The notes beneath the pieces were generated by a model. That model did no database searches and was not told where the DNA came from. It worked only from the letters and a program-made list of their open reading frames with translations. 64,000 nt of DNA, from positions 1 through 64,000 of IMG/VR virus record IMGVR_UViG_3300046837_000353; one strand, given 5' to 3'. Shown here piece by piece: positions 1 through 45,093 of the stretch. A program made the position numbers and the translations under genes. Origin of the DNA: a virus. Within the stretch, counting starts at the first letter, position 1. Each line of letters starts with the position of its first letter.

Positions 1-750
1 CTAGGCAGAGGCGAGATTGCCCTTGCCGTTCTTCCGGCGACGCAGCTTACCCACGACACCCATACCAATAAGCGAGGTGCCAAAGATAATCAGCGAAGCA
101 GGTTCGGGCACCGCTTGCGTAGTGACGATTGATTGGGTACGCCCAACCAACGACGCACCAGCGATCAGCGTACCGGTGGTCCCTTCCGACAGGGAGTAGG
201 GACCGGTGCTGTCGAACACACCTGAAAAGTTCTGCGAGAACGAGTCAGGATCGACCACGGCAGCGTGCGTCAGGGTTGCAAGCAAAGTCCCCGGCAGATC
301 AGTCGGGGTGTCCGCGCCTTGCGTGTTCGCCGCATCACCAAAGAACGTCTCAGTGACGCTGGAGCCGATACCGGATTGGAACGTCCCGGCGCCACTAGCG
401 GTGAACGCCGTGACCGGACCCAAGAAGCTGGTCCCACTCACGGCAAGCTGAATCGAAACCGTACCCGTGTTATTGTTGATCACCTGAAACGAGGAGGTGT
501 TCAACGAGTTTGACGGTCCGATTACCTGAGTCTGTGCTGATCCGAGGAACTGCACACCGGCGATCGTCTGATTGGCAATTTGCAACTGACCAACTGCGTT
601 GTTGGTGTCGCAAGCTGCCTGATCTGCGCAGACGAATGAAGTACCGTTGATGTCTGCGGCGATCTGTAGTGTCGCGTTAGCCGAACCTGCCAACGCCAAC
701 CCACCCGCAAGGATGGTGCTGGCTAAGGCTAGGTTTTTGAGCTTACTCAT
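1..750 (-). CDS. PEP-CTERM sorting-domain secreted protein
   Basis: 249 aa. The N-terminus (residues 1-26) is a typical signal peptide: SKLK, a hydrophobic stretch, then ANA before the mature chain. The C-terminus carries the PEP-CTERM tripartite signal: VPEP motif (about residue 215), a hydrophobic helix, then a basic tail (LRRRKNGK). The middle is Ser/Thr/Gly/Asn-rich and looks like an extracellular beta-rich protein. Proteins with this tail are processed by exosortase in Gram-negative bacteria, so the gene implies an exosortase-bearing host. The stop codon TAG lies at the very edge, so the gene is complete. RBS TGAGGT precedes the ATG. A PEP-CTERM cargo among phage genes is unusual; it may be a host-derived moron or decoy surface protein. 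Confidence 0.88.
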   Translation of the reverse strand: MSKLKNLALASTILAGGLALAGSANATLQIAADINGTSFVCADQAACDTNNAVGQLQIANQTIAGVQFLGSAQTQVIGPSNSLNTSSFQVINNNTGTVSIQLAVSGTSFLGPVTAFTASGAGTFQSGIGSSVTETFFGDAANTQGADTPTDLPGTLLATLTHAAVVDPDSFSQNFSGVFDSTGPYSLSEGTTGTLIAGASLVGRTQSIVTTQAVPEPASLIIFGTSLIGMGVVGKLRRRKNGKGNLASA

Positions 751-2908: not shown

Positions 2909-3409
2909 TTAGGTGGCCATCAGTTCACGAGCAGCAGGACCGTCCTTCCGCCGCCTGCGCCGGCGCTTCAGAAAGGACGTCTGATCCTTCTCGTTCCAGG
3001 ACCGAATGAGTGCCATGTCCAGATAGTCCAGATCGAGACCAAAGTCCTCATAGCCCTGTGCGATCACGTCCAGATAGTGCTGCCCAGGAGGCTGAACACC
3101 ACCGTGGCACATCTGATACACCAGGACATCGGCAACCTTACCGGTCTTGACCATCTTGACCTTGATGTAGATCTTCTCATAGAGACCTCCACCAACGCCC
3201 TCATACATGTCAAGCTCTTTTTCACACTCCCTGGTGATCTTCCAAAGACCACCGGGGCAGCTTTCCTTGCGGTCGTACTCGATATCGGCTACACCGCGAA
3301 ACACCAGGCGTGAGTGGGTGAGATGAAACGAGCCCAGCTTCTTGGCCTTGGGGCATCTGCGCTTCATCGCCTCGACACAGAGATTGCTTCCATAGGCGAA
3401 ATACAACAT
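2909..3409 (-). CDS. Gamma-glutamylcyclotransferase/AIG2-like protein
   Basis: 166 aa. The N-terminal MLYFAYGSNL plus MKRRCP is the hallmark substrate-binding motif of the GGCT/AIG2 superfamily, followed by RLVFRG, GGLWKI and a DMYEG segment carrying the expected acidic residue. These enzymes release 5-oxoproline from gamma-glutamyl amines. The C-terminus ends in a basic run (KRRRRRRKDG) absent from typical members. Start ATG 3409 is fixed by CAAGGAGA upstream. The amidoligase gene at 4816-6030 is in the same leftward block; published genome-context work on amidoligases (Iyer and colleagues) reports GGCT-like partners, so the two may work in one peptide or gamma-glutamyl amide pathway. Confidence 0.82.
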   Translation of the reverse strand: MLYFAYGSNLCVEAMKRRCPKAKKLGSFHLTHSRLVFRGVADIEYDRKESCPGGLWKITRECEKELDMYEGVGGGLYEKIYIKVKMVKTGKVADVLVYQMCHGGVQPPGQHYLDVIAQGYEDFGLDLDYLDMALIRSWNEKDQTSFLKRRRRRRKDGPAARELMAT

Positions 3410-3436
3410 GTCGGAATCTCCTTGCTGACTCCCTAT

Positions 3437-3465
3437 ATATATAAGCGCTTTGCGATGAATTGCAA
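3437..3465 (-). promoter_or_regulatory. Conserved phage promoter (cyclotransferase gene)
   Basis: Minus strand: TTGCAA at 3465-3460, GCAAAGCGCT in the spacer, TATATATA as -10, then AGTCAGCAAGGAGA leader ahead of ATG 3409. Confidence 0.85.
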
Positions 3466-3474
3466 GCCCCCGCA

Positions 3475-3756
3475 TCAAAAGATTTCGTCCTTGAGTCTGG
3501 GGTTGAGGCGATCCACACCGGGACCCTTGTGCTTGATCCACGGACCCGGCGGGTCGCCCTGACCGTCCCAAACTAACGTAGCAAGGAACGCCTCGTGGCG
3601 GAGTTCGTAGCAATATCGACTGCTATAACCGGTCTCATCCAGACCTGTGAACAGACCAGTGGTAAAGTTCATATTCATCAGGCCGATCCACCTGCCGTCC
3701 TTGAGCTGTCGAACGTTTGTGTAGCCCTCTGATAGGAGCAGCTCTTCGGTGGTCAT
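3475..3756 (-). CDS. Hypothetical phage protein
   Basis: 93 aa, soluble. It starts MTTEELLLSEGY and has a KDGRWIGLMNMNFTTGLF segment typical of small beta-rich phage proteins; no function is assignable. The start overlaps the stop of the membrane peptide gene upstream (ATGA), so it is translationally coupled within the leftward operon 4809 to 3475. Confidence 0.65.
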   Translation of the reverse strand: MTTEELLLSEGYTNVRQLKDGRWIGLMNMNFTTGLFTGLDETGYSSRYCYELRHEAFLATLVWDGQGDPPGPWIKHKGPGVDRLNPRLKDEIF

Positions 3757-3884
3757 GATCGATCCTGAATGATGTGAATGACGATGGGTGCACGCGGCAT
3801 TGAGCCGAGTTGGTACCCCAATAGTCCACACGCTGCGATGAATGTGATTAGTATCACCGCAAGAATAACTTCAGACCAGTGCAT
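3753..3884 (-). CDS. Small single-pass membrane protein
   Basis: 43 aa. One transmembrane helix (about residues 6-28, VILAVILITFIAACGLLGYQL) with a short polar tail. The start codon lies 2 bases from the upstream stop and the end overlaps the next start. Function unknown; small inner-membrane phage peptides are often exclusion or lysis-related, which is only an analogy. Confidence 0.55.
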   Translation of the reverse strand: MHWSEVILAVILITFIAACGLLGYQLGSMPRAPIVIHIIQDRS

Positions 3885-3885
3885 G

Positions 3886-4194
3886 TTAATCCATTCGACA
3901 AACTTCGAACTCACCACCGGGCTGCACAATGGCAACCCATGAATGATTGTAGAAGCGGATCAACTCATTCCGAAGAATGGTCTCGGCTAGCAGTTTAACC
4001 GGTGGGTCGCCTGGGTACTGCAGGTCACCATTGGCCAGCATGGTGAACCCCTGGAAAGGGACCCACCCGCCACCGTGACCATAGGACCGATCGAACTGCT
4101 CCCGCGCGGGCATAGGATTGCCCTCGTTGAGAAACAGTGGGATGTATCCGAGCATCTCGATCGTTGCCTGTGGGTGCTTCATCGTCCAGATCAT
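3886..4194 (-). CDS. Conserved phage protein (AHGGGWRPF-like family)
   Basis: 102 aa. Contains QFDRSYGHGGGWVPFQGF, LQYPGDPP, LAETILRNELIRFY and a terminal EFEVCRMD, a layout I recognise from hypothetical proteins of many proteobacterial phages; no activity is known to me. GGAGA lies 5 bases upstream of ATG 4194. Confidence 0.7.
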   Translation of the reverse strand: MIWTMKHPQATIEMLGYIPLFLNEGNPMPAREQFDRSYGHGGGWVPFQGFTMLANGDLQYPGDPPVKLLAETILRNELIRFYNHSWVAIVQPGGEFEVCRMD

Positions 4195-4328
4195 CGGTTT
4201 CTCCAGTTATTAGATCCGTGCGCCGTTGCCGTGTGGTGTTGCTGCGCAGTATTTCGCCACCGTGTAAGGTGCGCCTTGGCGCACGGCTTGGCGTCGTGCA
4301 TGTGGGTCATTGGGTCATCCTGGGCCAT
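4191..4328 (-). CDS. Small overlapping ORF, His-rich
   Basis: 45 aa with several His (THMHDAK, QQHHTATAH). It fills the only gap in the operon, starts inside the end of the upstream gene and ends in an ATGA overlap with the next, which supports translation. No homology recognised. Confidence 0.4.
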   Translation of the reverse strand: MAQDDPMTHMHDAKPCAKAHLTRWRNTAQQHHTATAHGSNNWRNR

Positions 4329-4548
4329 TGCTTGACATCCGTTCTATCAGTTCATCGGCGCAGTCGAGCCAATCGGTATGCATCTCGGGGTAAGCTCCCT
4401 CTTCACCCACCTGATCCCATGGACGGCTCGTCCGCATCTCGAACATGTCGTACAAGTGTCGGGCGAGGCGCTCGCGGAACTGGCTGTTCGACAGGGCCCG
4501 ATGCCAGCCTGGATTGCGGTCGAGCCATTGTTTGATGGTGGGCTGCAT
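4315..4548 (-). CDS. Hypothetical phage protein
   Basis: 77 aa, Trp- and acidic-rich (TIKQWLDRNPGWHRALSNSQ, HTDWLDCADELIERM). AAGGAG precedes ATG 4548. Between the upstream gene's TGA and this RBS lies one of six copies of the ATGGACTTAC motif. Confidence 0.65.
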   Translation of the reverse strand: MQPTIKQWLDRNPGWHRALSNSQFRERLARHLYDMFEMRTSRPWDQVGEEGAYPEMHTDWLDCADELIERMSSNGPG

Positions 4549-4572
4549 TGTGATTACTCCTTGTAAGTCCAT

Positions 4573-4809
4573 TCAGTGCGTGGTTTCGGTTTCGTCAACC
4601 AGCAGGCCGATCCGAACGAGGTCGGCAACGAAATCTTCTGCGCTGCCGCACCGCACCCGCTTGCCCGTTTGTAGCAAGACTCTGCCTTGGGTCTCTTTCA
4701 TAAACTTGCGATCGTTATCTGATTGCGTGAAAGAAATCTTGTGCAGTTCTTTCACAATACCCTCTGGGGTCGTTGCCCCCAGAGGTTGTCCATCATTGGT
4801 CCGGTACAT
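4573..4809 (-). CDS. Conserved small phage protein
   Basis: 78 aa. MYRTNDGQPLGATTPEGIVKELH, then LQTGKRVRCGSAEDFVADL: a pattern seen repeatedly in hypothetical proteins of tailed phages. Starts 6 bases after the amidoligase stop, so it is probably cotranscribed with it. Confidence 0.7.
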   Translation of the reverse strand: MYRTNDGQPLGATTPEGIVKELHKISFTQSDNDRKFMKETQGRVLLQTGKRVRCGSAEDFVADLVRIGLLVDETETTH

Positions 4810-4815
4810 AGCTGC

Positions 4816-6030
4816 TTATCTCCTCTCGGTGATGACACGATTGAGTTGAGCTACCCGCGCCTGCAGGAAAGCCAACTCGTTCGCAGGGATATTAACCGTA
4901 TTTGCAAAATTCTGCAAGGAATCATCTCCCTCGGGCTGCAAACCTTTCACGGCCGCGTCGTAGATGCGCAAGCAAACCCGTACCCAATGCTCTGCTTTGT
5001 CGGCATCGACCGTGCCCTGGTGCTGCCTGAACTCGACCGTTGTGTGTCGCCAGAAGGCTGCGAGATTAACCTTGAGGAACCGCTCAAGTCTATTCTCCAT
5101 TTGTGCGGGATAGCTTGGCATGATGTTTAACAAGCTACCCGCATATGCCAGCGCCAGCTCGTCTATATTGGTGGCGGCTGCAATTAGAAGCGACCTGGCA
5201 CCATCTTCCACCCGCGCTTTGGTCGAGCGGCAATAACTATTGTTATTTGCACGGCGCGTCTGGGAAGTGATAGAGTCAATTGCGCCTTCATAGTGACCAT
5301 AAAGCTTGATCAGATTGCGGAAGAAGTTAACATCTCGGCCTTCTGCGCCGATATGCACGTGAAAGCCTGCCTGGCGGCGAACTGTGCAGCCCTTTTCTTC
5401 CAGAAACTTCATCATCTTACGCATCTGCTGGATGCCCTCGCTGCCTTGCAGCACTGGGGACACCACTTCAATGCCATTTCTACGATCACCAAGCGAACCG
5501 TCCTGCGTGATCTTCCACACATTAGGCCGGACGGGATCACGATAATAACCAATCACTGCTTGAAAGCCTGCGCTGATCATGTCAGCCATAAGGCTGCGTT
5601 GACCCATATTCCGGGGCATGTAGCATTCGATCTCAACGCCGAATGTGTAATCGGTGAGGTCGGCGTCAAGCGCGGTGCTGAGTGCCACAATTGCTGTGCT
5701 GGTGTGAGGCGCCCGTGGACCGCGAGGCGTCACTGTGCCTTCGGTCAACAGCACTTCCGGGAGCTGCTCCAGCAGGCTGGGCATCGGTAAGCGTTCAATC
5801 AGCCAGGTCCGATTTGTGTTTATCACCCGCTGGCGCAAGGCCAGCAAGCGAACGGCCCGCCACCGAACTGAGGTCCAATTGTTGGTCCACTGATTGGTGT
5901 TCCACTGGGACACGCCACTCAGATGATGGCGTACCTGTGTTGCGATGGTCCGATACTCATTGTGGATCTGCTCGTCCCACCAGGCCGGACCTTGGCCATT
6001 GATTGTGGGGGGTAGATTAATGCGAGGCAT
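4816..6030 (-). CDS. Amidoligase-family enzyme (COOH-NH2 ligase type)
   Basis: 404 aa. After a variable N-terminal region (1-125), the glutamine-synthetase/GCS-like core shows the family landmarks: TFGVEIECYM (about 128-137), the W-ITQDGSLGD block (about 168-178), EVVSPVLQG (about 184-192), GFHVHIGA (about 213-220) and VEFRQHQGT (about 330-338); acidic and His residues there bind Mg-ATP. Family members form amide or peptide bonds on an uncharacterised substrate. The GGCT-like gene in the same block is a known type of partner. The start is supported by CGGAGA and the conserved promoter at 6056-6085. Substrate unknown. Confidence 0.85.
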   Translation of the reverse strand: MPRINLPPTINGQGPAWWDEQIHNEYRTIATQVRHHLSGVSQWNTNQWTNNWTSVRWRAVRLLALRQRVINTNRTWLIERLPMPSLLEQLPEVLLTEGTVTPRGPRAPHTSTAIVALSTALDADLTDYTFGVEIECYMPRNMGQRSLMADMISAGFQAVIGYYRDPVRPNVWKITQDGSLGDRRNGIEVVSPVLQGSEGIQQMRKMMKFLEEKGCTVRRQAGFHVHIGAEGRDVNFFRNLIKLYGHYEGAIDSITSQTRRANNNSYCRSTKARVEDGARSLLIAAATNIDELALAYAGSLLNIMPSYPAQMENRLERFLKVNLAAFWRHTTVEFRQHQGTVDADKAEHWVRVCLRIYDAAVKGLQPEGDDSLQNFANTVNIPANELAFLQARVAQLNRVITERR

Positions 6031-6055: not shown

Positions 6056-6085
6056 TATATATAAGCTTTTTGCAGCACATTGCAA
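6056..6085 (-). promoter_or_regulatory. Conserved phage promoter (amidoligase operon)
   Basis: Minus strand: TTGCAA at 6085-6080, GCAAAAAGCT in the spacer, TATATA near 6061-6056, leader TTGTCAGAACGGAGA before ATG 6030. Confidence 0.85.
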
Positions 6086-10135: not shown

Positions 10136-11404
10136 TTATGTTACTCTTAAGTTATACTTAAGAAATCTTTTGACCAAAGTTGTTGACTTTATTCTACGTC
10201 GAGTTAATGCAGAAAGCATCATCATAGTTACTCCAACTATCACTATTGAAACTTTGTCGTTCATATCTCCCACAATGAAAATTGGTTGTAGAATTAATGT
10301 CATCAAAACTCCAGTACAAAATGTAACAAGAGAATTCTGACCTAAAAGAATGACTGGCTTGGAAACAGTCCATCTTAAGAATTCACTCTCTCGACTGACA
10401 AAGCTATTAATAACAATCACCACTGCTAGAAAATTAGCTAGTCGGACTGGTGCTAGAAATTCTTTACTTTGAAATAGTCTCCATGGCAAACCACCAGGAA
10501 AGATGAGTTCATTTACCGATGGTATGCTAAAAATTGCGCATCCTATAACAATAGTCCAAGCTCCAATAGTTATCCAATTCCATTTATTAACTATATAAAT
10601 TTCTCTGTTCTTAATCGGAATAAACTCTGGAATTAGAATTCTTCTTCTATGAGTTTGAAGATGTCGAATTGATGCACCTATGACAAATAGGAATTGCCAT
10701 GACAAAGGATTTACCCAATGAGCACTGTTAAAATATGGAATATCCCACAATATAATTAAAGTCGAAAAGTAAATTGAAAAGGAAACTAGTAACGTTACCA
10801 ACACATTCTTCCTAAGAGCATATAGAATAATCGGAAGAATTGCTAGGAGCATCATATATACTGGCAAAACTCCTAGAAATGGTACCTTAAACTTAAAAGA
10901 AACTAGCGCATCGATAGCTTGCTGAAAGACAGTATCAATTGAGATATAAGGAGATGACTCACCAGAAATTACTACATACAAAAAGTAGAATAAGAAAATC
11001 AGAAAGTTGGCTATGTATAGCTTACCAACTCGTTTGTAAATTTTAGTAGCTGTTGGTCGTATTCCATAGTTATTCAACATACTTCCATAGACCAAATAAG
11101 AAATGTATCCTGAGATACAAATGAAAACCTCCGATGCATCGAAGAAAGTGAAATAGCGAAGGAGTAGCGGTGATCCATGAACATGATCATAAAAGATCAA
11201 AATGAGAGCGATTCCTCGAAAGAAATCTACTCTGGGATCACGAGAGCTAAGGTAGTCAGCCGGCATCATTACACCGGTGGTACCGCGCCGATTCTCTTCA
11301 ATCGGCAAAGTGTCGATATGACTTCCCTTCTGAAAATCAGCGCGTGGTTTTGGGAGACGGGACAATCTATGCTCCCAACGATACATCATTTCGGCGTAAT
11401 CCAT
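10136..11404 (-). CDS. OpgC-like membrane acyltransferase
   Basis: 422 aa integral membrane protein with about ten predicted helices. The opening RDPRVDFFRGIALILIFYDH and SEVFICISGYISYLVYG are diagnostic of the OpgC family, which transfers succinyl groups from the cytoplasm to periplasmic glucans. Start ATG 11404 follows AAAGGA. An 86-residue or shorter cytoplasmic N-terminal arm precedes the first helix. The gene is AT-richer than its neighbours, consistent with later acquisition. In a phage it could alter envelope glycans and so adsorption or superinfection; that role is inference. Confidence 0.85.
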   Translation of the reverse strand: MDYAEMMYRWEHRLSRLPKPRADFQKGSHIDTLPIEENRRGTTGVMMPADYLSSRDPRVDFFRGIALILIFYDHVHGSPLLLRYFTFFDASEVFICISGYISYLVYGSMLNNYGIRPTATKIYKRVGKLYIANFLIFLFYFLYVVISGESSPYISIDTVFQQAIDALVSFKFKVPFLGVLPVYMMLLAILPIILYALRKNVLVTLLVSFSIYFSTLIILWDIPYFNSAHWVNPLSWQFLFVIGASIRHLQTHRRRILIPEFIPIKNREIYIVNKWNWITIGAWTIVIGCAIFSIPSVNELIFPGGLPWRLFQSKEFLAPVRLANFLAVVIVINSFVSRESEFLRWTVSKPVILLGQNSLVTFCTGVLMTLILQPIFIVGDMNDKVSIVIVGVTMMMLSALTRRRIKSTTLVKRFLKYNLRVT

Positions 11405-11415
11405 AACAGTTCCTT

Positions 11416-12672
11416 TCATCTCATAAACCAACGACTAATCACTTGCTTCACTCCTTTCATTGGGGAACCCCACCTTTGCCTTACTTCTTTGGCTTGTTTT
11501 TGTACTGTTATCTTTAATGGTGGATTGTGTCTTTTATGTAGTTCTTCAATTACAGCAGTGATGTCTCCTAACTTTCCATCAAAACCTACCTCAAGAACAG
11601 CTAGTGACGCAATCGAATAGGCTTCAAGCAGACGTGGTACCCATTGTGTTCTCCGCTTTAGATCCATTGGAAGGATCTTTTTCCCCACATTATTTTCAAG
11701 ATTCACCCAGTTTATTGCCCGGATTTTCAGCGTTTCCATAGTTAGAAGAGCATCATTCGGATAACCAAGTATTTTAATTTCATGTATCTTATTCCAAAAC
11801 ATCTGTTTATATTCATTAATCAAGCCCATTTCAAAGGTATAGCGCATGGCTCGGTGAAGTTTTTGATTACCTCGCTGTCCATGTTCCAAGTGGGTTAGTA
11901 TGTGAAACCATGCGTCCTCAAACGGATCTCTACTGGGCTTCAGTCTAGGACGACGATACTTGGTGATGGATGAAGGTGTAACTTCCACCACTTCCTTAAC
12001 TTTGGGTAACGGTGCGGGTGGAGGCAACACAGGAGGAGTTAATAACTTAGGTGGTGCTTCCGGGTATACCTTGGGTGCACGTTTGCGCCTGGCCGCACCC
12101 GCGCGAGGTAGAGTAGATTTCTCAGGTGGAGCCTGAATTATCTCTGGTGGGATTGGTGGTACCTGCGCAGCATATGTCGCCGCTTCTGCTTCCCGACATC
12201 CGTTAATAAGTGCTGCAACCTTATCCAAATTAACCCCATTACCATTGGATTGCGGATTAGTTACAGAGACTTCGTTATTACAGGTAGGACATGTATAAGC
12301 AGGTTTTTGATTGGAAGATGGCCAATGGGATAGATAACGTTTATTCCCACAATCTACACAAGCAGTCGTATCAGGCTTAAGCCGAATAAAATCAGAACGT
12401 TGCAGACGGGGAATATTTCCCCGACTGTTTTTTCCCTGATCATCTTGACGCTCAATGAGTGGGCGGACATATGATATAAATAACCGCCATCGGGCAGTAT
12501 GCAAACCTACATCAATCGGTGAATCTCCTCTGCCATTAATCCGGGAGGATCGGCGGAGGGCTAGATGGGGTGGAATTGATTCTTCCACCCCAGCAAAGAG
12601 CCCTCCTAACCGAACCCAAGACTCTGGGTTCGCCGCTAGATTAGCGACGGTTTGTTGTCGCCAGGTTAGCAT
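11416..12672 (-). CDS. Hypothetical protein, zinc-binding with Pro-rich linker
   Basis: 418 aa. N-terminal domain with a CVDCG...CPTC zinc ribbon (about 105-135), then a proline-rich basic linker (about 165-235), then an alpha-helical C-terminal domain containing HILTHLEHGQRGNQKLHRAM. The start overlaps the end of the ParB-like gene. Zinc ribbon, basic linker and position suggest DNA binding alongside the ParB-like set; no specific family recognised. Confidence 0.55.
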   Translation of the reverse strand: MLTWRQQTVANLAANPESWVRLGGLFAGVEESIPPHLALRRSSRINGRGDSPIDVGLHTARWRLFISYVRPLIERQDDQGKNSRGNIPRLQRSDFIRLKPDTTACVDCGNKRYLSHWPSSNQKPAYTCPTCNNEVSVTNPQSNGNGVNLDKVAALINGCREAEAATYAAQVPPIPPEIIQAPPEKSTLPRAGAARRKRAPKVYPEAPPKLLTPPVLPPPAPLPKVKEVVEVTPSSITKYRRPRLKPSRDPFEDAWFHILTHLEHGQRGNQKLHRAMRYTFEMGLINEYKQMFWNKIHEIKILGYPNDALLTMETLKIRAINWVNLENNVGKKILPMDLKRRTQWVPRLLEAYSIASLAVLEVGFDGKLGDITAVIEELHKRHNPPLKITVQKQAKEVRQRWGSPMKGVKQVISRWFMR

Positions 12673-22465: not shown

Positions 22466-22492
22466 ATTTGATGCCTATTTTTGGGGGAAGCA

Positions 22493-23062
22493 ATGGTTGA
22501 TTGGTTAAAGGTCAGACAAGGAGTCATTGATATTCTGGATGGTTTGGGATTGGATGCTAGAGATCCAAACTTTTTCGATACACCGGATCGGGTTGTGCGG
22601 GCTTATCAAGAGATCTTTGCAGGTCTAGATGAACGGAATACCGTTGAAGAGATGCTTAAAAGTGTGTTCCCCTGTGAACACCAACAGATGATTTTAGTTA
22701 AACATGTTGAAGTGTTTAGTATGTGTCCTCATCATCTTCTTCCAGTCCGTTATGATATTACGGCTGGGTACTTACCTGGTCCGGGGATTCGAGCAAAGGT
22801 CTTGGGCCTGTCAAAATTGGCTAGGATCACAAAGCTTCTAGCTGCCCGACCTGTTCTTCAGGAGCAAGTGGTTAACGATATCGCCAATACTCTAATGCGT
22901 ATACCTGAATGTCGTGGGGCTGGCTGCATTGCTACTGGTGAACACTATTGTATGCGTATGCGTGGAGTCAATCAGAGTGGCTCAATTGTTGTTACCAGCG
23001 CCTTGCGTGGTGAGTTCTTATCTGATTCAATGGTCCGTGAAGAATTCATGGACTTTAGATAG
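22493..23062 (+). CDS. folE: GTP cyclohydrolase I
   Basis: 189 aa; ATG 22493 preceded by GGGGGAAG. Converts GTP to 7,8-dihydroneopterin triphosphate, the first step to folate, biopterin and 7-deazaguanines. Seen: DTPDRVVRAYQEIF, the zinc/active-site SMCPHHLLPV (about 76-85), GLSKLARI (about 104-111), QEQVVNDIA and the GEHYCMRMRGV block (about 147-157). Length matches short phage/bacterial FolE. With QueD (44400), QueE (45093), QueC (25767) and a DpdA-like gene it supplies preQ0-type bases for DNA. Heads the apparent modification operon. Confidence 0.95.
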   Translation: MVDWLKVRQGVIDILDGLGLDARDPNFFDTPDRVVRAYQEIFAGLDERNTVEEMLKSVFPCEHQQMILVKHVEVFSMCPHHLLPVRYDITAGYLPGPGIRAKVLGLSKLARITKLLAARPVLQEQVVNDIANTLMRIPECRGAGCIATGEHYCMRMRGVNQSGSIVVTSALRGEFLSDSMVREEFMDFR

Positions 23063-23071
23063 GAGAAGTAG

Positions 23072-23731
23072 ATGGGTATCGCTGTTGTTACTGGAGCATC
23101 TTCTGGTATTGGTAAGGCAATCTATGATCACTTTAATACAAGCGACCGGTTTGATAGTGTTGTTGGTATAGCTAAGAACGGTCCGGATCTTGAATATGAC
23201 TTGTCGAGTGAGAAGGATATTCAAGAGATTGTGGATGACCTGCGCACCGCAGGTGACATTTCTTGTCTTGTAAATTGTGCGGGAATTTTGAAGCTTGAAG
23301 AGGTTGGAAATGAAGGTCAGATATTTGACGTTAACTTTTGGGCGCCATACTACCTGACTAATGCACTAAAGCATGAGTTGATTGCTGCACGTGGTTGTGT
23401 TATCAATATTGCCTCAGTTAGTGGGATGATTGCCGAGCCTGAGATTCCGATCTATGCCGCATCTAAGGCCGCGCTGATTTCACTGACCAAGAGTCTCGCT
23501 ATTAGGTTCTCACCCTTTTTTGTTAGGGTGAATTGCATTAGTCCTGGATTTGTTAAGACGAATCTGATTCCGGGTGATACACCAATTGAACTTCTCAACG
23601 CAATCCCCTTAGGGTTTGAAGCAGAACCCGCAATGCTCCTTCCAGTCGTCGATATGATACTTGATTGTCCTTACGTTACTGGTGCAAACTTTGTAGTTGA
23701 CGGCGGGGGTTCTTGTAGAGCTGCAATGTAA
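23072..23731 (+). CDS. Short-chain dehydrogenase/reductase
   Basis: 219 aa classical SDR, NAD(P)-binding. TGASSGIG (about 7-14) is the dinucleotide motif, NCAG (about 68-71), catalytic Ser in the ASVSG block (about 112), YAASK (about 127-131) the Tyr-x-x-x-Lys pair, and a C-terminal GANFVVDGGG. Nine bases after FolE. It may reduce a pterin or an oxidised side-chain or sugar intermediate of the DNA modification; FabG-like generic activity cannot be excluded. Confidence 0.88.
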   Translation: MGIAVVTGASSGIGKAIYDHFNTSDRFDSVVGIAKNGPDLEYDLSSEKDIQEIVDDLRTAGDISCLVNCAGILKLEEVGNEGQIFDVNFWAPYYLTNALKHELIAARGCVINIASVSGMIAEPEIPIYAASKAALISLTKSLAIRFSPFFVRVNCISPGFVKTNLIPGDTPIELLNAIPLGFEAEPAMLLPVVDMILDCPYVTGANFVVDGGGSCRAAM

Positions 23732-23764
23732 TGTGAGACACGGTGCCACGTAAGGGAAGGTAAG

Positions 23765-24835
23765 ATGTCTGAATTACACACACCACGGTACTCCTGCATA
23801 TTCCAGTCGAGAATGTGCCCACGTTCTTGTTCCTATTGTCTGAGCAAAGACGTTAGAGGAGATGGGACTTTTCTGTCACCGGAGCAATGGGCAGATGCAT
23901 TACACATTCTGGAGTATCATGGTGTCCAGTTCCACTTGTTTATCGGTAATGAACTGTTTTCCTATTCCGATCCTGTTGGCTTTGTCAAGGCAATCAAACC
24001 CTTCTATGGGAGGTATGGTATCTATTCGACATTCCCACCAGGATGGACTGAAAAATATTTTGATGACTGTATTAACGCTGGTCTGTATAACATCTCTGGT
24101 GGTGTGGACGTCCTTCCCGGGTTACATAAGACAGGTGACGTCCACATTGATCGCAAGGCTCAAGCGGTGCTTAGTTGGTTGGAGTATGCGCTGATGCGCG
24201 GTGTACCGGACGTGCAAGCGCAAATTACTATTCATCGACACAATTACGATAAGCTCTATCCATTGCTTGACTTGTGTACAGAAAAGGGGATGTGGGTTGG
24301 GTGTTCTCTAGTAGAAGCATCTGCGGATGGACTACACGATTTTTACGGTACTGCTGATACAATGACTGAATGGTTAATACCAGCAGATGAACGTAACAAG
24401 TTTAGCGATGAGATGTACAAGTTAGCGGATGAGGTTGCCACCGGCAGGTGGAAGATGCAGTTACCACCAACATACTTTCGTGAACTAGCAGATCGTGAAG
24501 TGAGGCGTGATCCTTGGCATTGCAGTTTGCCTATGCTGATCTCAATTGAAGAGGATGGTTCTCTGCGCGGGTGCGGGTATAGGGGACCACTATCAGAAAA
24601 ATATTCGATATTCGACCTTCGTGAGGGCGGAAAGTTGCCCATGTCTGAGTATATAAGGTTGCAGAGGGAAAAGACCAGTCAGTGCCCTGGTTGTGGAGTT
24701 GGTGGCGGGGCTTGGTCGTTCTGGTGGATGGCTGAGTATTGGTTAAAGGGTGATGTGGCAATGGGAGACAGAATCTTCCAGACACATGCACCGGGGCATC
24801 TCTTTGAAGCGACGGTGAGACAGGATGAGCAATAA
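23765..24835 (+). CDS. Radical SAM enzyme, SPASM-like C-terminus
   Basis: 356 aa. CPRSCSYC (about 18-25) gives the CxxxCxxC cluster that cleaves S-adenosylmethionine. TIM-barrel features follow (GVQFHLFIGNEL, GLYNISGGVD). A C-terminal Cys set, CSLPM (about 255), GCGYRG (about 271) and CPGCGVGG (about 302), suggests an auxiliary Fe-S site like SPASM/Twitch proteins. It is distinct from the QueE gene at 45093. Located between SDR and methyltransferase genes in the 7-deazaguanine block, so it probably builds or rearranges the base side chain; no characterised homologue is recognised. Confidence 0.85.
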   Translation: MSELHTPRYSCIFQSRMCPRSCSYCLSKDVRGDGTFLSPEQWADALHILEYHGVQFHLFIGNELFSYSDPVGFVKAIKPFYGRYGIYSTFPPGWTEKYFDDCINAGLYNISGGVDVLPGLHKTGDVHIDRKAQAVLSWLEYALMRGVPDVQAQITIHRHNYDKLYPLLDLCTEKGMWVGCSLVEASADGLHDFYGTADTMTEWLIPADERNKFSDEMYKLADEVATGRWKMQLPPTYFRELADREVRRDPWHCSLPMLISIEEDGSLRGCGYRGPLSEKYSIFDLREGGKLPMSEYIRLQREKTSQCPGCGVGGGAWSFWWMAEYWLKGDVAMGDRIFQTHAPGHLFEATVRQDEQ

Positions 24836-25082
24836 GCCAACAGTTGCTGAAGTGATGATAAAATTTCTTGTTGAAGAAAAGATTGCCAATCCTCATTCGA
24901 CATCTAAGAATGCCTCGGATGAAGAAGCGATAGCAATTTACGATAATTGTGTGGCATTTGTTGAGCGTTATTACCCTGATGTTACTACAGAAGAACTCCG
25001 CAAGGCTTTTCGTAAAGTACACAAGACTCCAGCGTCGAAGATGTGGGCTATAGCGAATAAGTACAAGGGTGGTACTGCATGA
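24825..25082 (+). CDS. Small hypothetical protein
   Basis: 85 aa, acidic, helical; overlaps the radical SAM gene at its start and the methyltransferase gene at its end (ATGA), so tightly coupled to both. Could be a partner subunit; no motif recognised. Confidence 0.65.
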   Translation: MSNKPTVAEVMIKFLVEEKIANPHSTSKNASDEEAIAIYDNCVAFVERYYPDVTTEELRKAFRKVHKTPASKMWAIANKYKGGTA

Positions 25083-25756
25083 AGTCCTATTCAAAGAAGA
25101 CAATCAAGCGATTTAACCTAACCATTGAAGGTGATGAATTTAATGATGCTGAACAGAATAAATCACTCTATGATGATCACGTGAGTGGATATGATGAGTT
25201 GACTAAGTTGTTAGACATCAATGATACAACCTATGTCTATCGTAAGGTACTCAATGTTGGTGCAGGTTCGGGTTCTCCGTTAAAGTTTCCCCATCCAGTT
25301 GATATGTACTATCTTGAGCCCAATCCAGATCGGGTTGAAGAGATTGATGTCGATCGTGATGATAACATAATCTCTGGTTGGTGTGAGAACATCGAGACTG
25401 AACTAAAGTTTGATATGATTATCTGTTGGGGAACATTGTGCTTTGTACGTTCTATACCAGAAACCCTAATTCAGTTTAATGATCGTTTGTTTAAAGAAGG
25501 TATGTTGGTACTAGATGTAGTTAAATCAACATCATTCCCACTATGCCAGACTGCTGATCCTGATAGTTTTATTAGAAATGTGAGTTTGTATGGGTTTGAA
25601 TTACAACATCGTATCCCCTTTGATCATTTGGGACACAATCGTGAGGGGATTCGCTTTAAGAAGGTTCGCGACTTTGACCCTAGGTATCTGCGGATGCCTC
25701 AGGCTAAGGATGGCTTGAGGAACTTCATCCCTGAGAGAGACTGGTTTCTATCTTAG
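25079..25756 (+). CDS. Class I SAM-dependent methyltransferase-like protein
   Basis: 225 aa. KVLNVGAGSGS (about 56-66) is a motif I glycine loop, YYLEPNPD (about 78-85) the acidic ribose-binding strand, FDMIICWGTLCFV (about 112-124) the motif IV region, and LFKEGMLVLDVV a following strand, as in small-molecule methyltransferases of the UbiE type. Not a DPPY/NPPY-type DNA methylase. Position suggests methylation of a modified-base or sugar intermediate, or a capping step; substrate unknown. Confidence 0.78.
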   Translation: MKSYSKKTIKRFNLTIEGDEFNDAEQNKSLYDDHVSGYDELTKLLDINDTTYVYRKVLNVGAGSGSPLKFPHPVDMYYLEPNPDRVEEIDVDRDDNIISGWCENIETELKFDMIICWGTLCFVRSIPETLIQFNDRLFKEGMLVLDVVKSTSFPLCQTADPDSFIRNVSLYGFELQHRIPFDHLGHNREGIRFKKVRDFDPRYLRMPQAKDGLRNFIPERDWFLS

Positions 25757-25766
25757 AGGAGATAAC

Positions 25767-26321
25767 ATGACACCTGGTCTAGTCGTTCTTACCAGCGGTG
25801 GTTTTGATAGTGCATTATTGTTACACATGGCAAAGCGGATGAACTATAATCCAATCGCCCTATTGATTGATTATGGTCAGAAACACGTTCGGGAATTGGA
25901 TGCTGCTGTTAAGTTGTGCGATGATCTCCAGGTTTCCTTTAAGCGGATGAAGGTTGATCTTGCTCAAGCAGTTGACTCTGGGTTGACTGGTACTTTGCAG
26001 GGTGGTAAGTATGAGGGACTGCATGAGATGCACGTCCCTGGACGCAACACTATCTTTGTTGGTCTAGCTCTGTCACTGGCAGAAGCTGTCGGTGCAACAA
26101 AGATTTGGTATGGAGCGAATTTTGAGGACCGGATAAATGAGTTTGCGGACTGCAAACAAGACTGGGTCCTCGAGATGAACAAGTCTCTAAAGATCGCGGG
26201 AAGCTACCCAGTGGAGTTGGAAGCCCCTTTGCTTGGGATGCGCAAGGACACTATTGTGCGCATGGGTAAGCTGTACCACGATATTAAGGAAGAGGAGGTT
26301 CACAGTGGGTATGCCGTCTAA
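25767..26321 (+). CDS. queC: QueC-like PP-loop enzyme lacking the zinc module
   Basis: 184 aa. PP-loop LTSGGFDSALLL (about 8-19) binds ATP; IDYGQKHVRELDAA (about 35-48), the PGRNTIF block (about 92-98) and GANFEDR (about 115-121) match QueC, which turns 7-carboxy-7-deazaguanine into the amide ADG and then the nitrile preQ0. Typical QueC is near 220 aa and ends in a four-Cys zinc site; here the chain stops at HSGYAV and no Cys cluster exists in any frame downstream, so the loss is real and not a frameshift. AGAGGAG precedes the ATG. It may stop at ADG or pair with another protein. Confidence 0.9.
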   Translation: MTPGLVVLTSGGFDSALLLHMAKRMNYNPIALLIDYGQKHVRELDAAVKLCDDLQVSFKRMKVDLAQAVDSGLTGTLQGGKYEGLHEMHVPGRNTIFVGLALSLAEAVGATKIWYGANFEDRINEFADCKQDWVLEMNKSLKIAGSYPVELEAPLLGMRKDTIVRMGKLYHDIKEEEVHSGYAV

Positions 26322-27132
26322 TAATGATAAGAAGATTCTTCACTGGAGATCCACGGCAAACGGAGGTGATCCTTCTTCTCCTACACAACCGGATTTGCCT
26401 GATGGGTTTATCACTATAAGGGAGGCTGTTAGTCTTACAGGTTTTTCTAAAACAACTATTCGTAAAACAAAAGTGACCCATCGACAAGAATGGCGTAGGA
26501 TAGATGGGAGGGTATTTGTACGCAAAGACTTTATCTTGGAATATTGTGCGGTTAGAGCTAGGCTTAGGGCTAGACCTGAACCCAGGAGGCGGAAAAAGAA
26601 GTACCCTAATCGTGTACCTGCTCGTTTTTTACTGCCTCTTAAACCAGGTGAATGGTTTATTAGGACTGAAGTTGAGAGGAGAAAGGGAACAGAAGGTGTA
26701 TACCTTCACTTTGTCTCTGGTGATGATCTTTCCGATCTGAATATCTACTCGTTTGATTGTATGTATAACGCGCTTAAAGCTGGTGGGTATTCTGAACTTA
26801 AAGGTTTACCAGAATGGACTGCAGTGACGGTTCCTAAGAATCGTAATATTCCGCAGTTAGAATTTGAACACAAGTATACAAAGAGGGAACAGGGTTTAGG
26901 TCATGTATGCCGAATTGGTACAACGGATGGTGCAGCTATTCCTTCCTGGATGAAGGCTCCTGGTTTGATGAAAGGTAAAATGGAGAGGGAATCGTTTGTA
27001 GGAAAGACTATTCTGCGAATTACGGCTACTCAAATGATCGAGATGGAGGGTTTTACACCTGGAGAGTTTGTGGACGAACGTATAAAAGAAGAAGGAAAAG
27101 CTTACTGGGGTCCTCTTTGGGATTTAACTTGA
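26305..27132 (+). CDS. HTH-containing hypothetical protein
   Basis: 275 aa from GTG 26305 (AGAGGAGG six bases upstream; ATG 26311 is the alternative). Overlaps the end of QueC. Residues about 27-60 (FITIREAVSLTGFSKTTIRK plus a wing) resemble a MerR/excisionase winged helix. A basic stretch (RARPEPRRRKKKYP) follows, then a domain I do not recognise. A sequence-specific DNA-binding protein is likely. Its insertion between QueC and DpdA genes may mean an unrelated moron. Confidence 0.55.
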   Translation: MGMPSNNDKKILHWRSTANGGDPSSPTQPDLPDGFITIREAVSLTGFSKTTIRKTKVTHRQEWRRIDGRVFVRKDFILEYCAVRARLRARPEPRRRKKKYPNRVPARFLLPLKPGEWFIRTEVERRKGTEGVYLHFVSGDDLSDLNIYSFDCMYNALKAGGYSELKGLPEWTAVTVPKNRNIPQLEFEHKYTKREQGLGHVCRIGTTDGAAIPSWMKAPGLMKGKMERESFVGKTILRITATQMIEMEGFTPGEFVDERIKEEGKAYWGPLWDLT

Positions 27133-27142
27133 GGGAATGAAA

Positions 27143-27523
27143 ATGGAAGAGCAGATCGCACACACTATGCTGATGAATAAGCACTATAGCCCGATGGTTG
27201 TCAGGAAGACCTCAACATGGGGCTTCCCAGTGTTTGTTGCTTTGATCACCGATGACGACTTGGCGGATCTGGATCAGGTTATTCTAAAGTTTATGCTGGA
27301 TGCAAAGGCAGTCAACGGGTGGTCAGATAATATTCAAAAGATGCGCAACCTGGCGGGAGCAATGGTTGAGATGCTCAATAATAGGTATCCGAAGGTTGAA
27401 GGATCAGCTGTGATAATTTATTCAGACAAATGCTTCATCTCTAGTTTGCATGGCGATCTGATGACACATCTTAGTTGTAAAGTTGAACTTTTCGAGCTTC
27501 TCAATATGAGTACTGGAGTTTAG
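27143..27523 (+). CDS. Hypothetical protein
   Basis: 126 aa; ATG 27143 preferred for its seven-base spacing to GAGGG. Mixed alpha/beta composition (WGFPVFVALITDDDLADLDQ; AVIIYSDKCFISSLHGDL). No family recognised. Confidence 0.6.
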   Translation: MEEQIAHTMLMNKHYSPMVVRKTSTWGFPVFVALITDDDLADLDQVILKFMLDAKAVNGWSDNIQKMRNLAGAMVEMLNNRYPKVEGSAVIIYSDKCFISSLHGDLMTHLSCKVELFELLNMSTGV

Positions 27524-27525
27524 TT

Positions 27526-27675
27526 ATGTCTCGTCCACGTGGGTATAAACATACTGAGGCTACCCGAAAGAAGCTTAGTGAAGGAACTAAATTACGTTAT
27601 GAGGCTGGGATATTGATGGGGTTTCGTGCTAAACCGTTGTCTGAGGAGGCACACGTTATGCTCAATTCCGTGTGA
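27526..27675 (+). CDS. NUMOD3-like short ORF
   Basis: 49 aa. GYKHTEATRKKLSEGTK (6-22) matches the NUMOD3 helix-loop motif (KHSEETRKKIS) found as DNA-contact modules in HNH/GIY-YIG homing endonucleases. No nuclease is attached, so it is either a remnant of a homing endonuclease or a small DNA-binding peptide. It overlaps the next gene by 4 bases. Confidence 0.5.
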   Translation: MSRPRGYKHTEATRKKLSEGTKLRYEAGILMGFRAKPLSEEAHVMLNSV

Positions 27676-28124
27676 CAAAAGATGAGAAGTCATCTAAGGA
27701 ATTAGCCATCTATGTCAACCATGCAGTGGATGGACACGTTTGCGCTGACTGTTCTATGTTTGATCCACCTGCCTCTTGCAATGCAGTGGCTGGTCCAATT
27801 AGTCCAGCGGGTCATTGCAGTTTCTGGACGGCCAAAGAAAACAATCTAAGAATAAGCAGTTTCCAAGGCTTACCCGTATTTATTGAGACATCTAAAGGTG
27901 AAAGACGTAGACAAGATTGGCCTATTATGCCAGCACACTATGGATTTATTACTATGACTAACTCACCAGAAAAGAATGATGGATTAGACGTCTTTATTGG
28001 AGACAATAAAGCCTGTCGTCACTGTTGGATTATTGACCAAATCCATCCAGATACAGAGGAGTTTGTCAATGACTTCCGAGATTCGTGGTCTTGTAACTTG
28101 CGAAATTCAAGAGATGCTCCATGA
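27672..28124 (+). CDS. HiPIP-like Cys motif plus InPase-like domain protein
   Basis: 150 aa from GTG 27672. N-terminal CADCSMFDPPASC and GHCSFW (about 21-52) resemble a high-potential iron-sulfur Cys pattern; residues about 65-135 (GLPVFIETSKGERRR, MPAHYGFITMT, DGLDVFIGDNK, HCWIIDQIHPDT) resemble the inorganic-pyrophosphatase-like domain found in phage head-associated and toxin-like proteins. The chain is shorter than usual. Its presence in the DNA-modification block is odd; it could hydrolyse pyrophosphate released by nucleotide chemistry, or be a stray virion-gene fragment. Confidence 0.6.
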   Translation: MTKDEKSSKELAIYVNHAVDGHVCADCSMFDPPASCNAVAGPISPAGHCSFWTAKENNLRISSFQGLPVFIETSKGERRRQDWPIMPAHYGFITMTNSPEKNDGLDVFIGDNKACRHCWIIDQIHPDTEEFVNDFRDSWSCNLRNSRDAP

Positions 28125-28582
28125 CGATAGCGATATGGGCTCCCCATGCAGATGACGAGATAATTGGTTGCTACCATGTACTTATGTCTAAAGAAAAGGT
28201 ACAAGTATACTATGGGGGGATTGTTGAAGATGGCTGCAAGAGAGCCTCTAGACTATTCGGTTTCGAATTTTACCATCTCAGCAATCTCGCTCGTCCTTGG
28301 GATGTCGTCTATGCTCCTGATCCTAATGTGGATATGCATCCGGAGCATCGCCGATTAGGCCAGATGGCCCATCAAATGTTTAGGGCGGGCAAGATAAGGC
28401 GAGTAATTCACTATTGTACAACGATGCAGGCGCCGTATATATTTGAAGTACCAGATCCCGAGGCAAAGCGGAATGCGTTGAATCAATGCTATCCTGAAAA
28501 GGGAGATTTATGGCGATACGAATGGAAATATGTATTATTTGAAGGATACTGGGAGGTATTAAGATTGGATCATAGAAAATGA
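28121..28582 (+). CDS. PIG-L/LmbE family deacetylase
   Basis: 153 aa. WAPHADDEIIG (6-16) is the zinc-binding P-H-x-D-D-E signature, and NVDMHPEHRRLG (about 68-79) the second His site; both are needed for N-acetyl-sugar deacetylation. The chain is shorter than most PIG-L enzymes (near 220 aa). ATGA overlaps join it to the gene before and to the glycosyltransferase after, so a GlcNAc-type sugar added or supplied by that enzyme could be deacetylated here, giving a free amine. Confidence 0.85.
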   Translation: MTIAIWAPHADDEIIGCYHVLMSKEKVQVYYGGIVEDGCKRASRLFGFEFYHLSNLARPWDVVYAPDPNVDMHPEHRRLGQMAHQMFRAGKIRRVIHYCTTMQAPYIFEVPDPEAKRNALNQCYPEKGDLWRYEWKYVLFEGYWEVLRLDHRK

Positions 28583-29526
28583 GACTGATAGTTGTACCCC
28601 AATATCCTGCGCAGCTACGATATCAATCCTGGTGGTTGACACGACTTGAAGATTACTATCTGTACTTTGATAAGGTACTTATCCTCCACCCACCGCAGTT
28701 TACCAATCAAGCTCATTTAAGTGGTGAATTTGCCCCGGCAATGGCGGCAATTGATTATGAGGTTAGACAGATCAGTTTGTATAATCAGTTAGTAATTGAT
28801 GAAGAGGATGATATATTACTTCTTTGTGATATTAGCTTTCCTGGACTATTCTCATCTGTTTTATTTCATAAGCGTCCTAAGAAATGCTTTGCCATTTGCC
28901 ACGCAACATCGCTTAATAGGTATGATTACTTTGCTGCGGTGCGTCCCGGGAAGTGGAGAGTGGAAACAGGGACTAGCAAGATATTTGATAAGATTTTTGT
29001 GGCAAGTGAGTATCATAAGGAGCGGTTAGGCTGGAAGAACACGGTGGTGATCAAGTTTCCGTTACCAAAGATTGATGAATTAGTGGAAAAGCGGTTGAGT
29101 AAGGAGCAACAACATCACCATAGTAGATCGTTTATTAGTGTGGCCCGGAAAGGGGTGCAAAAGATTGATTTAGAATTGGAGAGGTTTTTTGAATGGAGTG
29201 AGAGGACTAGTATACACAGGTTTTATCAAACTAAAGGTAAGACTTGGACTGATTACTATGGATTTGTTGAGGCTGGGCGGTTTATGATTATTACTTCCCG
29301 CGAAGAGACTTATGGCTATCAAGTCATAGACGCGTTATCAGTAGGCACTATTCCACTTGCTCCAAGAGCATTGTCCTACCCTGAATTGTTACCAGATGAA
29401 AATTTATACGAACCCGGAAGGGCTACTGATCTGATAGATACGTATAAAAGGTATGGAGATAAGCCCGCGCCTCCTTTGTGGGAAGACAAGTTCTTTGAGT
29501 TCACAGCAACTGAGATGAAAAGATGA
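28579..29526 (+). CDS. Glycosyltransferase, GT-B fold
   Basis: 315 aa. C-terminal nucleotide-sugar half shows TSREETYGYQVIDALSVG (about 237-254), the E-x7-E-like region of GT4/GT1 enzymes, then TIPLAPRALSYPELLPDENL, as in retaining glycosyltransferases. The N-terminal Rossmann half is less typical and begins RLIVVPQYP. ATGA overlap with the deacetylase upstream and the DpdA-like gene downstream. Probably glycosylates modified DNA or a 7-deazaguanine precursor; surface-polysaccharide modification is the main alternative. Confidence 0.75.
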   Translation: MRLIVVPQYPAQLRYQSWWLTRLEDYYLYFDKVLILHPPQFTNQAHLSGEFAPAMAAIDYEVRQISLYNQLVIDEEDDILLLCDISFPGLFSSVLFHKRPKKCFAICHATSLNRYDYFAAVRPGKWRVETGTSKIFDKIFVASEYHKERLGWKNTVVIKFPLPKIDELVEKRLSKEQQHHHSRSFISVARKGVQKIDLELERFFEWSERTSIHRFYQTKGKTWTDYYGFVEAGRFMIITSREETYGYQVIDALSVGTIPLAPRALSYPELLPDENLYEPGRATDLIDTYKRYGDKPAPPLWEDKFFEFTATEMKR

Positions 29527-30611
29527 AAAACTATGTGGTAATGTTGGATAGCGGTGCCTGGACTGCCCATACCAAGGGTATGACGATTAACTTGGATAAG
29601 TATGCAGAATTTGTTCATCAGAATAAACATCTGTTTGGTGGTGGTGTGTTCAATTTGGACTTCATAGATCCACCGGTCTCTGCTGCATACCAGACTGAAT
29701 CAGCTGAAAAGAGCTATAAGAACTGGATTGAGCTGCGCAAGCTTGGGATTGATACCATACCTGTTCACCATATTGGCGATGATGACGAGTCATACCTAAA
29801 GAAGTATTTAGAGCAGACTGATTATATTGGAATTGGTGCAATTGCCAAACTAAACGCTGAAGCTCGAATTTACGGACTTGATTATATCTGGAAAGAATAT
29901 CTGTCAAATAAGGATGGTACGCCCAGGTATAGATGTCATGGTCTTGGTTTGACTGATATCAAGATCACGCTGCGCTATCCTTGGTTCTCTGTGGATAGTA
30001 CTCGTGCGATTATGCTGGCTGCACATGGTGGTATCTTGCTGCCTAAACTTGATGGTGACAAGTTCTCCTACAGAGAGATATACCAGGTTGCGGTGAGTAA
30101 TCAAGGTCGTAGTCATTATCGGGGTAAGGGTGATAGTTTTTATGGCATGTCAAAGCTCATCCAGGGTCAGATAAAGCACTATTGTACTTCGTTAGGTTAT
30201 GAGTTGGATGATTCTATTGCGGGACGTACACTTAATCCCCTGATGAAGAGTCGAAAGAAGGTAGATGGTAAGTGGACGTCAGATTTTGCTTCACGTCAAT
30301 TGGGGTTCCCTGAAGAAGCTGCGCTTGCTGATGCTCCTTTAGTAAGTAACAATGTAGATGAGAAGAACTTGTCGGCAAGCTGGGTTCCCAGGTTTATCTT
30401 TAATCTATATGTGTCGGATCAGTTTATCAAGTATTGGCGCACACAAGGTAAAACGATCAGGATCTATAATGTAGTTGGTGGAGGCAATGTGTTCGACACG
30501 TTTGTTGTTGGATCACAGAGTGTCCCAGCTAATAGATGCTTGGTCAGTTATGCTAGGCTTTCCGGTTCCTTTCTTGATCGGTTAAAAGAGGTTGTCAATG
30601 GACATCACTAG
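29523..30611 (+). CDS. dpdA: DpdA-like DNA-guanine transglycosylase
   Basis: 362 aa. LDSGAWTAHTKG (8-19) carries the substrate-binding Asp-Ser-Gly-Ala of the phage DpdA/TGT superfamily, with NLDFID (about 46-51), PVHHIGDDDESYL (about 80-92), YIGIGAIAKL (about 99-108) and YPWFSVDST (about 159-167) carrying a second Asp, as in TGT-like barrels. These enzymes exchange guanine in DNA for preQ0-type bases. No zinc-binding tRNA-TGT motif is evident, consistent with the phage type. Overlaps the glycosyltransferase gene by 4 bases and the sliding clamp gene by 14, linking modification to replication. Confidence 0.85.
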   Translation: MKNYVVMLDSGAWTAHTKGMTINLDKYAEFVHQNKHLFGGGVFNLDFIDPPVSAAYQTESAEKSYKNWIELRKLGIDTIPVHHIGDDDESYLKKYLEQTDYIGIGAIAKLNAEARIYGLDYIWKEYLSNKDGTPRYRCHGLGLTDIKITLRYPWFSVDSTRAIMLAAHGGILLPKLDGDKFSYREIYQVAVSNQGRSHYRGKGDSFYGMSKLIQGQIKHYCTSLGYELDDSIAGRTLNPLMKSRKKVDGKWTSDFASRQLGFPEEAALADAPLVSNNVDEKNLSASWVPRFIFNLYVSDQFIKYWRTQGKTIRIYNVVGGGNVFDTFVVGSQSVPANRCLVSYARLSGSFLDRLKEVVNGHH

Positions 30612-44852: not shown

Positions 44853-45093
44853 TTTTTTTGAGTTTCGGCCGAGAGGTGTCTTAGCTCATCGAGGTGATCG
44901 ATTGGAGCAGCTTCGCGAATTACGGCAAGCTGGTGCACCTCGTTTTATGGTGCGACATAATCAATTAAGTCTGTGGGCATACAGACAAGCGTTAAAGAAC
45001 CCTGCATACTTTTGCAAGGATGTAACCATTCCTGGTCTGCAAGAGAATTTCGTTAAGTTTGTTATGATACACTATACAGCGGGACGAACATAA
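44821..45093 (+). CDS. Small hypothetical protein
   Basis: 90 aa, Arg/Gln-rich helical (GDRLEQLRELRQAGAPRF). Overlaps QueD by 32 bases and QueE by one, so it is coupled to both. Function unknown. Confidence 0.6.
   Translation: MEAIVPSSQDDFFEFRPRGVLAHRGDRLEQLRELRQAGAPRFMVRHNQLSLWAYRQALKNPAYFCKDVTIPGLQENFVKFVMIHYTAGRT

Follow-up and report, generated by a model that had tools for sequence, protein, structure and literature searches.

A recurrent small protein encoded beside the amidoligase and gamma-glutamylcyclotransferase genes of a phage

The IMG/VR virus record IMGVR_UViG_3300046837_000353 comprises 74,010 bases, and bases 1-64000 of it (the whole stretch analysed, 64,000 nucleotides, referred to here as the window) carry, on the minus strand, genes for an amidoligase and a gamma-glutamylcyclotransferase (GGCT). 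An initial annotation of this DNA had singled out the two enzymes as a pair. The amidoligase-GGCT pair is already known and is common in phages; as a full description of the locus it is incomplete, because the gene that immediately follows the amidoligase had been overlooked; it encodes a small protein that accompanies the amidoligase even at loci without a GGCT. This small protein is probably the working partner of the ligase. The locus is tentatively read, at a probability that falls somewhat short of even, as a three-component phage module consisting of a ligase, a partner protein and a GGCT that acts as eraser. The features of the locus are collected in Table 1.

Linkage of these genes was surveyed in sets that represent the best 80 matches of pattern scans seeded with this amidoligase/GGCT family, so that the proportions given below describe only this sample, and since many contigs are fragments the absences are lower bounds. 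Counts were made with profiles built for this analysis, because a PF06094 search of near-identical records had missed a known GGCT, and 80 loci found with phage ribonucleotide reductase (RNR) served as the control. With an iterated profile, the small protein was recognized immediately after the amidoligase gene at 58 of the 116 non-redundant loci that could be assessed (a pilot count of 51/126 before correction for overlap of open reading frames, ORFs). It was detected in none of the 80 RNR control loci, nor in any of 43 whole control records, two of which contain an amidoligase. Its stop codon lies mostly 221-316 nt past the ligase stop, and at divergent loci the homologue occupies the same place, with the ligase stop and the small-protein start often overlapping. 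Within one marine phage group the ligase, the small protein and GGCT overlap end to end (locus L361, Table 1). Scans with three small proteins alone recovered 34 loci, all 34 with an amidoligase and 31 also with a GGCT, the remaining three having the ligase at or near a contig end; two gene orders occur among these loci, ligase-small protein-GGCT and GGCT-ligase-small protein. The small protein is present without GGCT in 18 loci, which in a tree belong mainly to one clade of Bacteroidota-type phages, and its tie is therefore to the ligase. Presence of the small protein is scattered over many clades, with at least 21 changes on uncorrected calls in a quick tree with weak inner branches, a pattern consistent with repeated loss or divergence of an old association.

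The small protein consists of a conserved domain of 65 residues, formed by two short strands, three helices and one strand, and its structural model is confident (predicted local distance difference test score, pLDDT, 91). Conserved positions of the domain are D/G1-G2, F/Y/W31-M32, A36, R38, G44, R48, F55, D58-L59 and G63. The protein of the window has no match in Pfam, NCBIfam, PHROGs or PDB, and a PHROGs search of 19 members of the family yielded one that reaches E 3e-4. No similar solved structure was found by a fold search of the PDB (best E 2.6). Phage proteins without a name share the fold, with a template modelling (TM) score of 0.8; for one of these matches, Staphylococcus phage 6ec, no amidoligase is listed in the first 50 kb of the annotation. 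The gene neighbourhoods described by Iyer, Burroughs and Aravind in 2008 place the same glutamine-synthetase (GS)-like carboxylate-amine ligase family (their second type) beside the same Aig2-type cyclotransferase in firmicutes, and the paper states that no small conserved ORF goes with this ligase family (PMC2588565); about half of the sampled loci, the present one included, contradict that statement. The small partner is apparently undescribed in the phage amidoligase literature, and Iyer et al. 2009, which extended the 2008 work, may bear on this point.

Table 1. Coordinates of the features of the locus (window numbering) and of a compact example from another phage (numbering of locus L361)
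Feature	Coordinates	Strand	Size and type	Basis
Promoter-like motif upstream of amidoligase	6059..6085	-		motif search
Amidoligase	4816..6030	-	404 aa, PF12224 Amidoligase_2	profile, fold, residue conservation
Small partner protein (probable)	4573..4809	-	78 aa	starts 6 bp past amidoligase stop; homologues at divergent loci
Four small ORFs between small protein and GGCT	3475..4572	-	85, 102, 42 and 93 aa	
Promoter-like motif upstream of GGCT	3439..3465	-		motif search
GGCT	2909..3409	-	166 aa, human-GGCT type	PF13772, PF06094, alignment
L361, ligase	3165-4010			
L361, small protein	4001-4234			
L361, GGCT	4234-4704			

The two enzymes named in the initial annotation were borne out, and the catalytic residues are kept in both. 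The amidoligase scores well above the curated cut-off of PF12224 (E 3.4e-33, 116 bits against 22), with the catalytic domain at about residues 127-366 preceded by an N-terminal extension of 126 residues. The GhExE signature of the superfamily is intact (G131-V-E133-I-E135) and invariant over 36 divergent homologues, as are W172, D177, E188, H224, H226, R259, N322, E333, R335 and H337. Most of residues 127-290 and 320-400 have a pLDDT above 90 in the structural model, and the first 126 are modelled poorly. A Foldseek search of the PDB ranks YbdK (a gamma-glutamyl:cysteine ligase) and glutamine synthetases first, with E from 9e-5 and TM-scores of about 0.35, the low-confidence N-terminal extension being included; the modelled protein thus adopts a glutamine-synthetase/GCS2 (YbdK) fold. 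The predicted activity is ATP-dependent formation of amide bonds.

The GGCT matches PF13772 (E 2.8e-12) and PF06094 (E 2.7e-7), both above their cut-offs, and is closest to human GGCT (C7orf24, E 1.3e-18). In the alignment to the human enzyme E98 corresponds to the catalytic glutamate E70 (LDxxEG) and Y105 to Y77, the YGSN motif is kept, and the C-terminal tail is rich in arginine and lysine. The mechanically called ORF (2909-3613) opens with TTG; the true start is an ATG at 3409, which stands behind AAGGAG and aligns with the start of GGCT relatives, and the coding sequence was corrected accordingly. Release of 5-oxoproline from gamma-glutamyl substrates is the predicted activity. At another locus a 412-residue ORF directly after the amidoligase (L004:1371-2609) contains two tandem GGCT domains.

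Recurrence of the pairing in phage genomes, which the initial annotation had left to be looked for, is evident from the survey. GGCT was found in 61 of 80 viral amidoligase loci, every one on the same strand and downstream, and the amidoligase in 64 of 80 viral GGCT loci, while neither gene occurs in any of the 80 RNR control loci. Bacterial genome contigs carry the pair in 47/80 loci. When amidoligases were collapsed at 60% identity, GGCT lay within 3 kb in 88/126; among the non-redundant loci found by amidoligase alone the counts with GGCT are 40/52 (viral) and 11/31 (genomic). The GGCT partners of these ligases fall into two different subtypes. Both enzymes have been reported from LUZ24-like phages (PMC3890496), Arthrobacter cluster AL (PMC5513430), Clostridium clostridioforme prophages (PMC11318856) and a Planctomycetes phage (eLife 2024, PMC10945688).

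Comparison with described phage clusters sets the present locus apart in several respects. The amidoligase and GGCT likewise lie in one block in LUZ24-like, phiEco32-like and Zobellviridae clusters (UFV-P2, Vibrio phage 1.293.O), where a GATase, a second COOH-NH2 ligase and an ATP-grasp enzyme are added. Searches with PF13522 (GATase_6) and PF14395 (the second ligase) found neither in this phage and two long relatives (G000, G001 and G003), whereas the same searches found both in the Vibrio phage; PF14243 (ATP-grasp) gave no match here, nor in the Vibrio phage, which does have an ATP-grasp protein. The two enzymes are also neighbours in Arthrobacter cluster AL, Geobacillus GR1, Bacillus 031MP002 and Heliusvirales gut phages, the first three of which carry a GGCT subtype that differs from that of this phage. 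No small protein is recognisable in the Heliusvirales and Arthrobacter phages, and the Bacillus and Geobacillus phages have at most a remote one (E 0.005 and 0.02).

Other small ORFs were considered and rejected. The four that separate the small protein from GGCT in the window each occur in at most one other locus, positioned elsewhere, and were not accepted as module members; small ORFs that follow GGCT in Heliusvirales were rejected as a partner family, being zinc ribbons. A sub-clade without the small partner (L032, L037, L114 and L115) carries a helix-turn-helix-like protein of about 70-90 residues between amidoligase and GGCT.

A 27-bp promoter-like motif, TTGCAATN5GCAAANNGCTTATAT, is present in 11 copies in the window (nine exact, two with one mismatch; none expected in shuffles), and the sites span positions 2678 to 62726, ten on the minus strand and one on the plus strand. 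The amidoligase and GGCT each have a copy of their own. Most copies are followed, about 25-30 nt further on, by an ATG with a Shine-Dalgarno sequence, and the sequence 3′ of the motif is alike as well, forming a conserved leader (AGTCAG..GGAG). The motif resembles a σ70-type promoter (TTGCAA, 16-17 nt, TATATA), as judged from its letters, and the inverted repeat TTGC-N8-GCAA within it could serve as an operator. It was not found in the terminase-portal stretch of the record (L020); in a near-identical 93-kb relative it was not found in L021, L022 and L024, and one copy is present in L023. The earlier description of both genes as lying in one block, each under the same early-type promoter, is borne out in that the shared motif stands upstream of both genes and the strand is the same; "early" is an interpretation, and the genes are no direct neighbours, since a stretch of about 1.4 kb that holds several small ORFs separates them.

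The mechanism proposed here builds on the gene identities, the catalytic motifs, the ligase fold, the linkage of the three genes and their common promoter-like motif, from which we infer a chemistry on the real substrate, a complex of ligase and small protein, and a benefit to the phage. At the expense of ATP, the GS-fold amidoligase would link a carboxylate to an amine of a protein or small molecule, the likeliest carboxylate being the gamma-carboxyl of glutamate or of a glutamyl peptide, and the folded partner, made right after the ligase, would be its subunit or substrate adaptor. GGCT would cut the gamma-glutamyl group off the amine as 5-oxoproline, either making the mark reversible or recycling by-products. 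A writer and an eraser of gamma-glutamyl-type amides would be the simplest joint reading, and there is a precedent for such ligase and GGCT chemistry in butirosin biosynthesis, where a gamma-glutamyl protecting group is added by a ligase and removed by the AIG2-type BtrG. Host take-over, protection and exclusion of other phages are candidate benefits. Improbable, as a more particular proposal, is a reversible protein-modification system of a new type in tailed phages, in which the GS-fold ligase would mark proteins of the host or the phage with a glutamyl group or a peptide, the dedicated small partner would select or carry the substrate, and GGCT would be the eraser.

Several points weigh against the three-component reading. 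The 34 loci recovered with the small proteins all stand close to one of just three query lineages. A recognisable small protein is missing from half of the amidoligases, those of Heliusvirales-type gut phages among them, so that not all ligases can need it. An unrelated gamma-glutamyl compound could be what GGCT acts on. The suggestion of the initial annotation that the two enzymes build and remove amide or gamma-glutamyl links is plausible and has been published as genomic context.

The alternative that survives best, itself unlikely, is a metabolic cassette, in which ligase and GGCT would synthesise and cleave glutathione-like compounds or gamma-glutamyl peptides during infection and so feed amino acids, nitrogen or redox balance. 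The activity of human GGCT on gamma-glutamyl amino acids speaks for such a cassette, whereas a dedicated small partner would be unusual for a plain metabolic ligase and no glutathione-synthase-like gene was noticed in this phage. Synthesis of peptides or secondary metabolites was the role preferred in the 2008 paper on gene context (PMC2588565), and the metabolic role is proposed for the amidoligase, GATase, glutathione synthase and GGCT of the Planctomycetes phage, although the growth effect described there is due to the whole phage and not to these genes (PMC10945688).

Modification of the cell surface or of peptidoglycan peptides, which would exclude superinfecting phages, was put forward for phiEco32-like amidoligase/GATase clusters, and later phage papers took the proposal up again; for the present locus it appears rather improbable. 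An OpgC-type acyltransferase, another surface modifier, is encoded in the same phage, but GATase_6, which the PF13522 search also recovered from Arthrobacter phages, was not found in this phage or its long relatives, and no signal peptide is evident in any of the proteins. GGCT requires, moreover, that the alpha-amino group of the glutamyl residue be free, which is not the case for the D-Glu of peptidoglycan. A slightly poorer prospect is counter-defence, as suggested in the initial annotation, whereby the pair would inactivate a host defence molecule or protect against it: the early-type position and a gene block under a shared motif would suit such a role, whereas none of the three proteins has a PADLOC match and no neighbouring gene points to a target. 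Very improbable is a small protein that is itself the conjugated tag or acceptor, removed by GGCT or another enzyme, for although pupylation (PafA/Pup/Dop) likewise combines a small protein encoded nearby with a GS-fold ligase (PafA belongs to the superfamily, and Dop is a weak fold match), the small protein here is well folded and not disordered, its C-terminus is variable (17 different final residues among 91 unique sequences) with no conserved Glu/Gln or Gly-Gly, no lysine or glutamate is invariant, and the eraser would be GGCT rather than Dop.

The source of the DNA is a tailed phage, an assignment made because terminase genes and a portal protein (PF06381, E 2e-75) are encoded in the final 10 kb of the record; a near-identity search of phage records gave no match. 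A single 914-residue ORF encodes the portal followed by a C-terminally fused type IB topoisomerase domain (PF01028, E 9e-21; L020:4627-7371, at record bases of about 68627-71371, past the window end). The OpgC-type acyltransferase gene lies at 10136-11431 on the minus strand (PF10129, E 3e-62), in a low-GC stretch, and host surface glucans could be its target. On the plus strand, positions 22481-30611 and 45093-45797 encode GTP cyclohydrolase I, QueC and a QueE-like radical SAM protein; nearby are a possible DpdA (29523-30611, without a Pfam match), a second radical SAM protein, a methyltransferase and a weak PIG-L match. This set probably represents 7-deazaguanine DNA modification with extra tailoring genes, and a tie between it and the amidoligase module was considered, with no evidence found for it. 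An ORF at 1-750 (minus strand) encodes a signal peptide and a C-terminal PEP-CTERM-like sorting signal (VPEPASLIIFGTSLIGMGVVGKLRRRK), which is unusual for a phage.

The association of amidoligase and GGCT in phages has been on record since 2008. The case made at that time against protein conjugation was the absence of a small conserved ORF, and a folded, conserved partner weakens it. The partner protein spans phages of several bacterial phyla, and assays with the ligase alone, past or future, may fail for want of it. Because ligase and small protein also occur together in the prophages of bacteria that can be grown in culture, such as Porphyromonas, the partner idea is testable. The amidoligase-GGCT pair was known; the recurrent small partner is apparently new, and it offers a concrete way into an old question.

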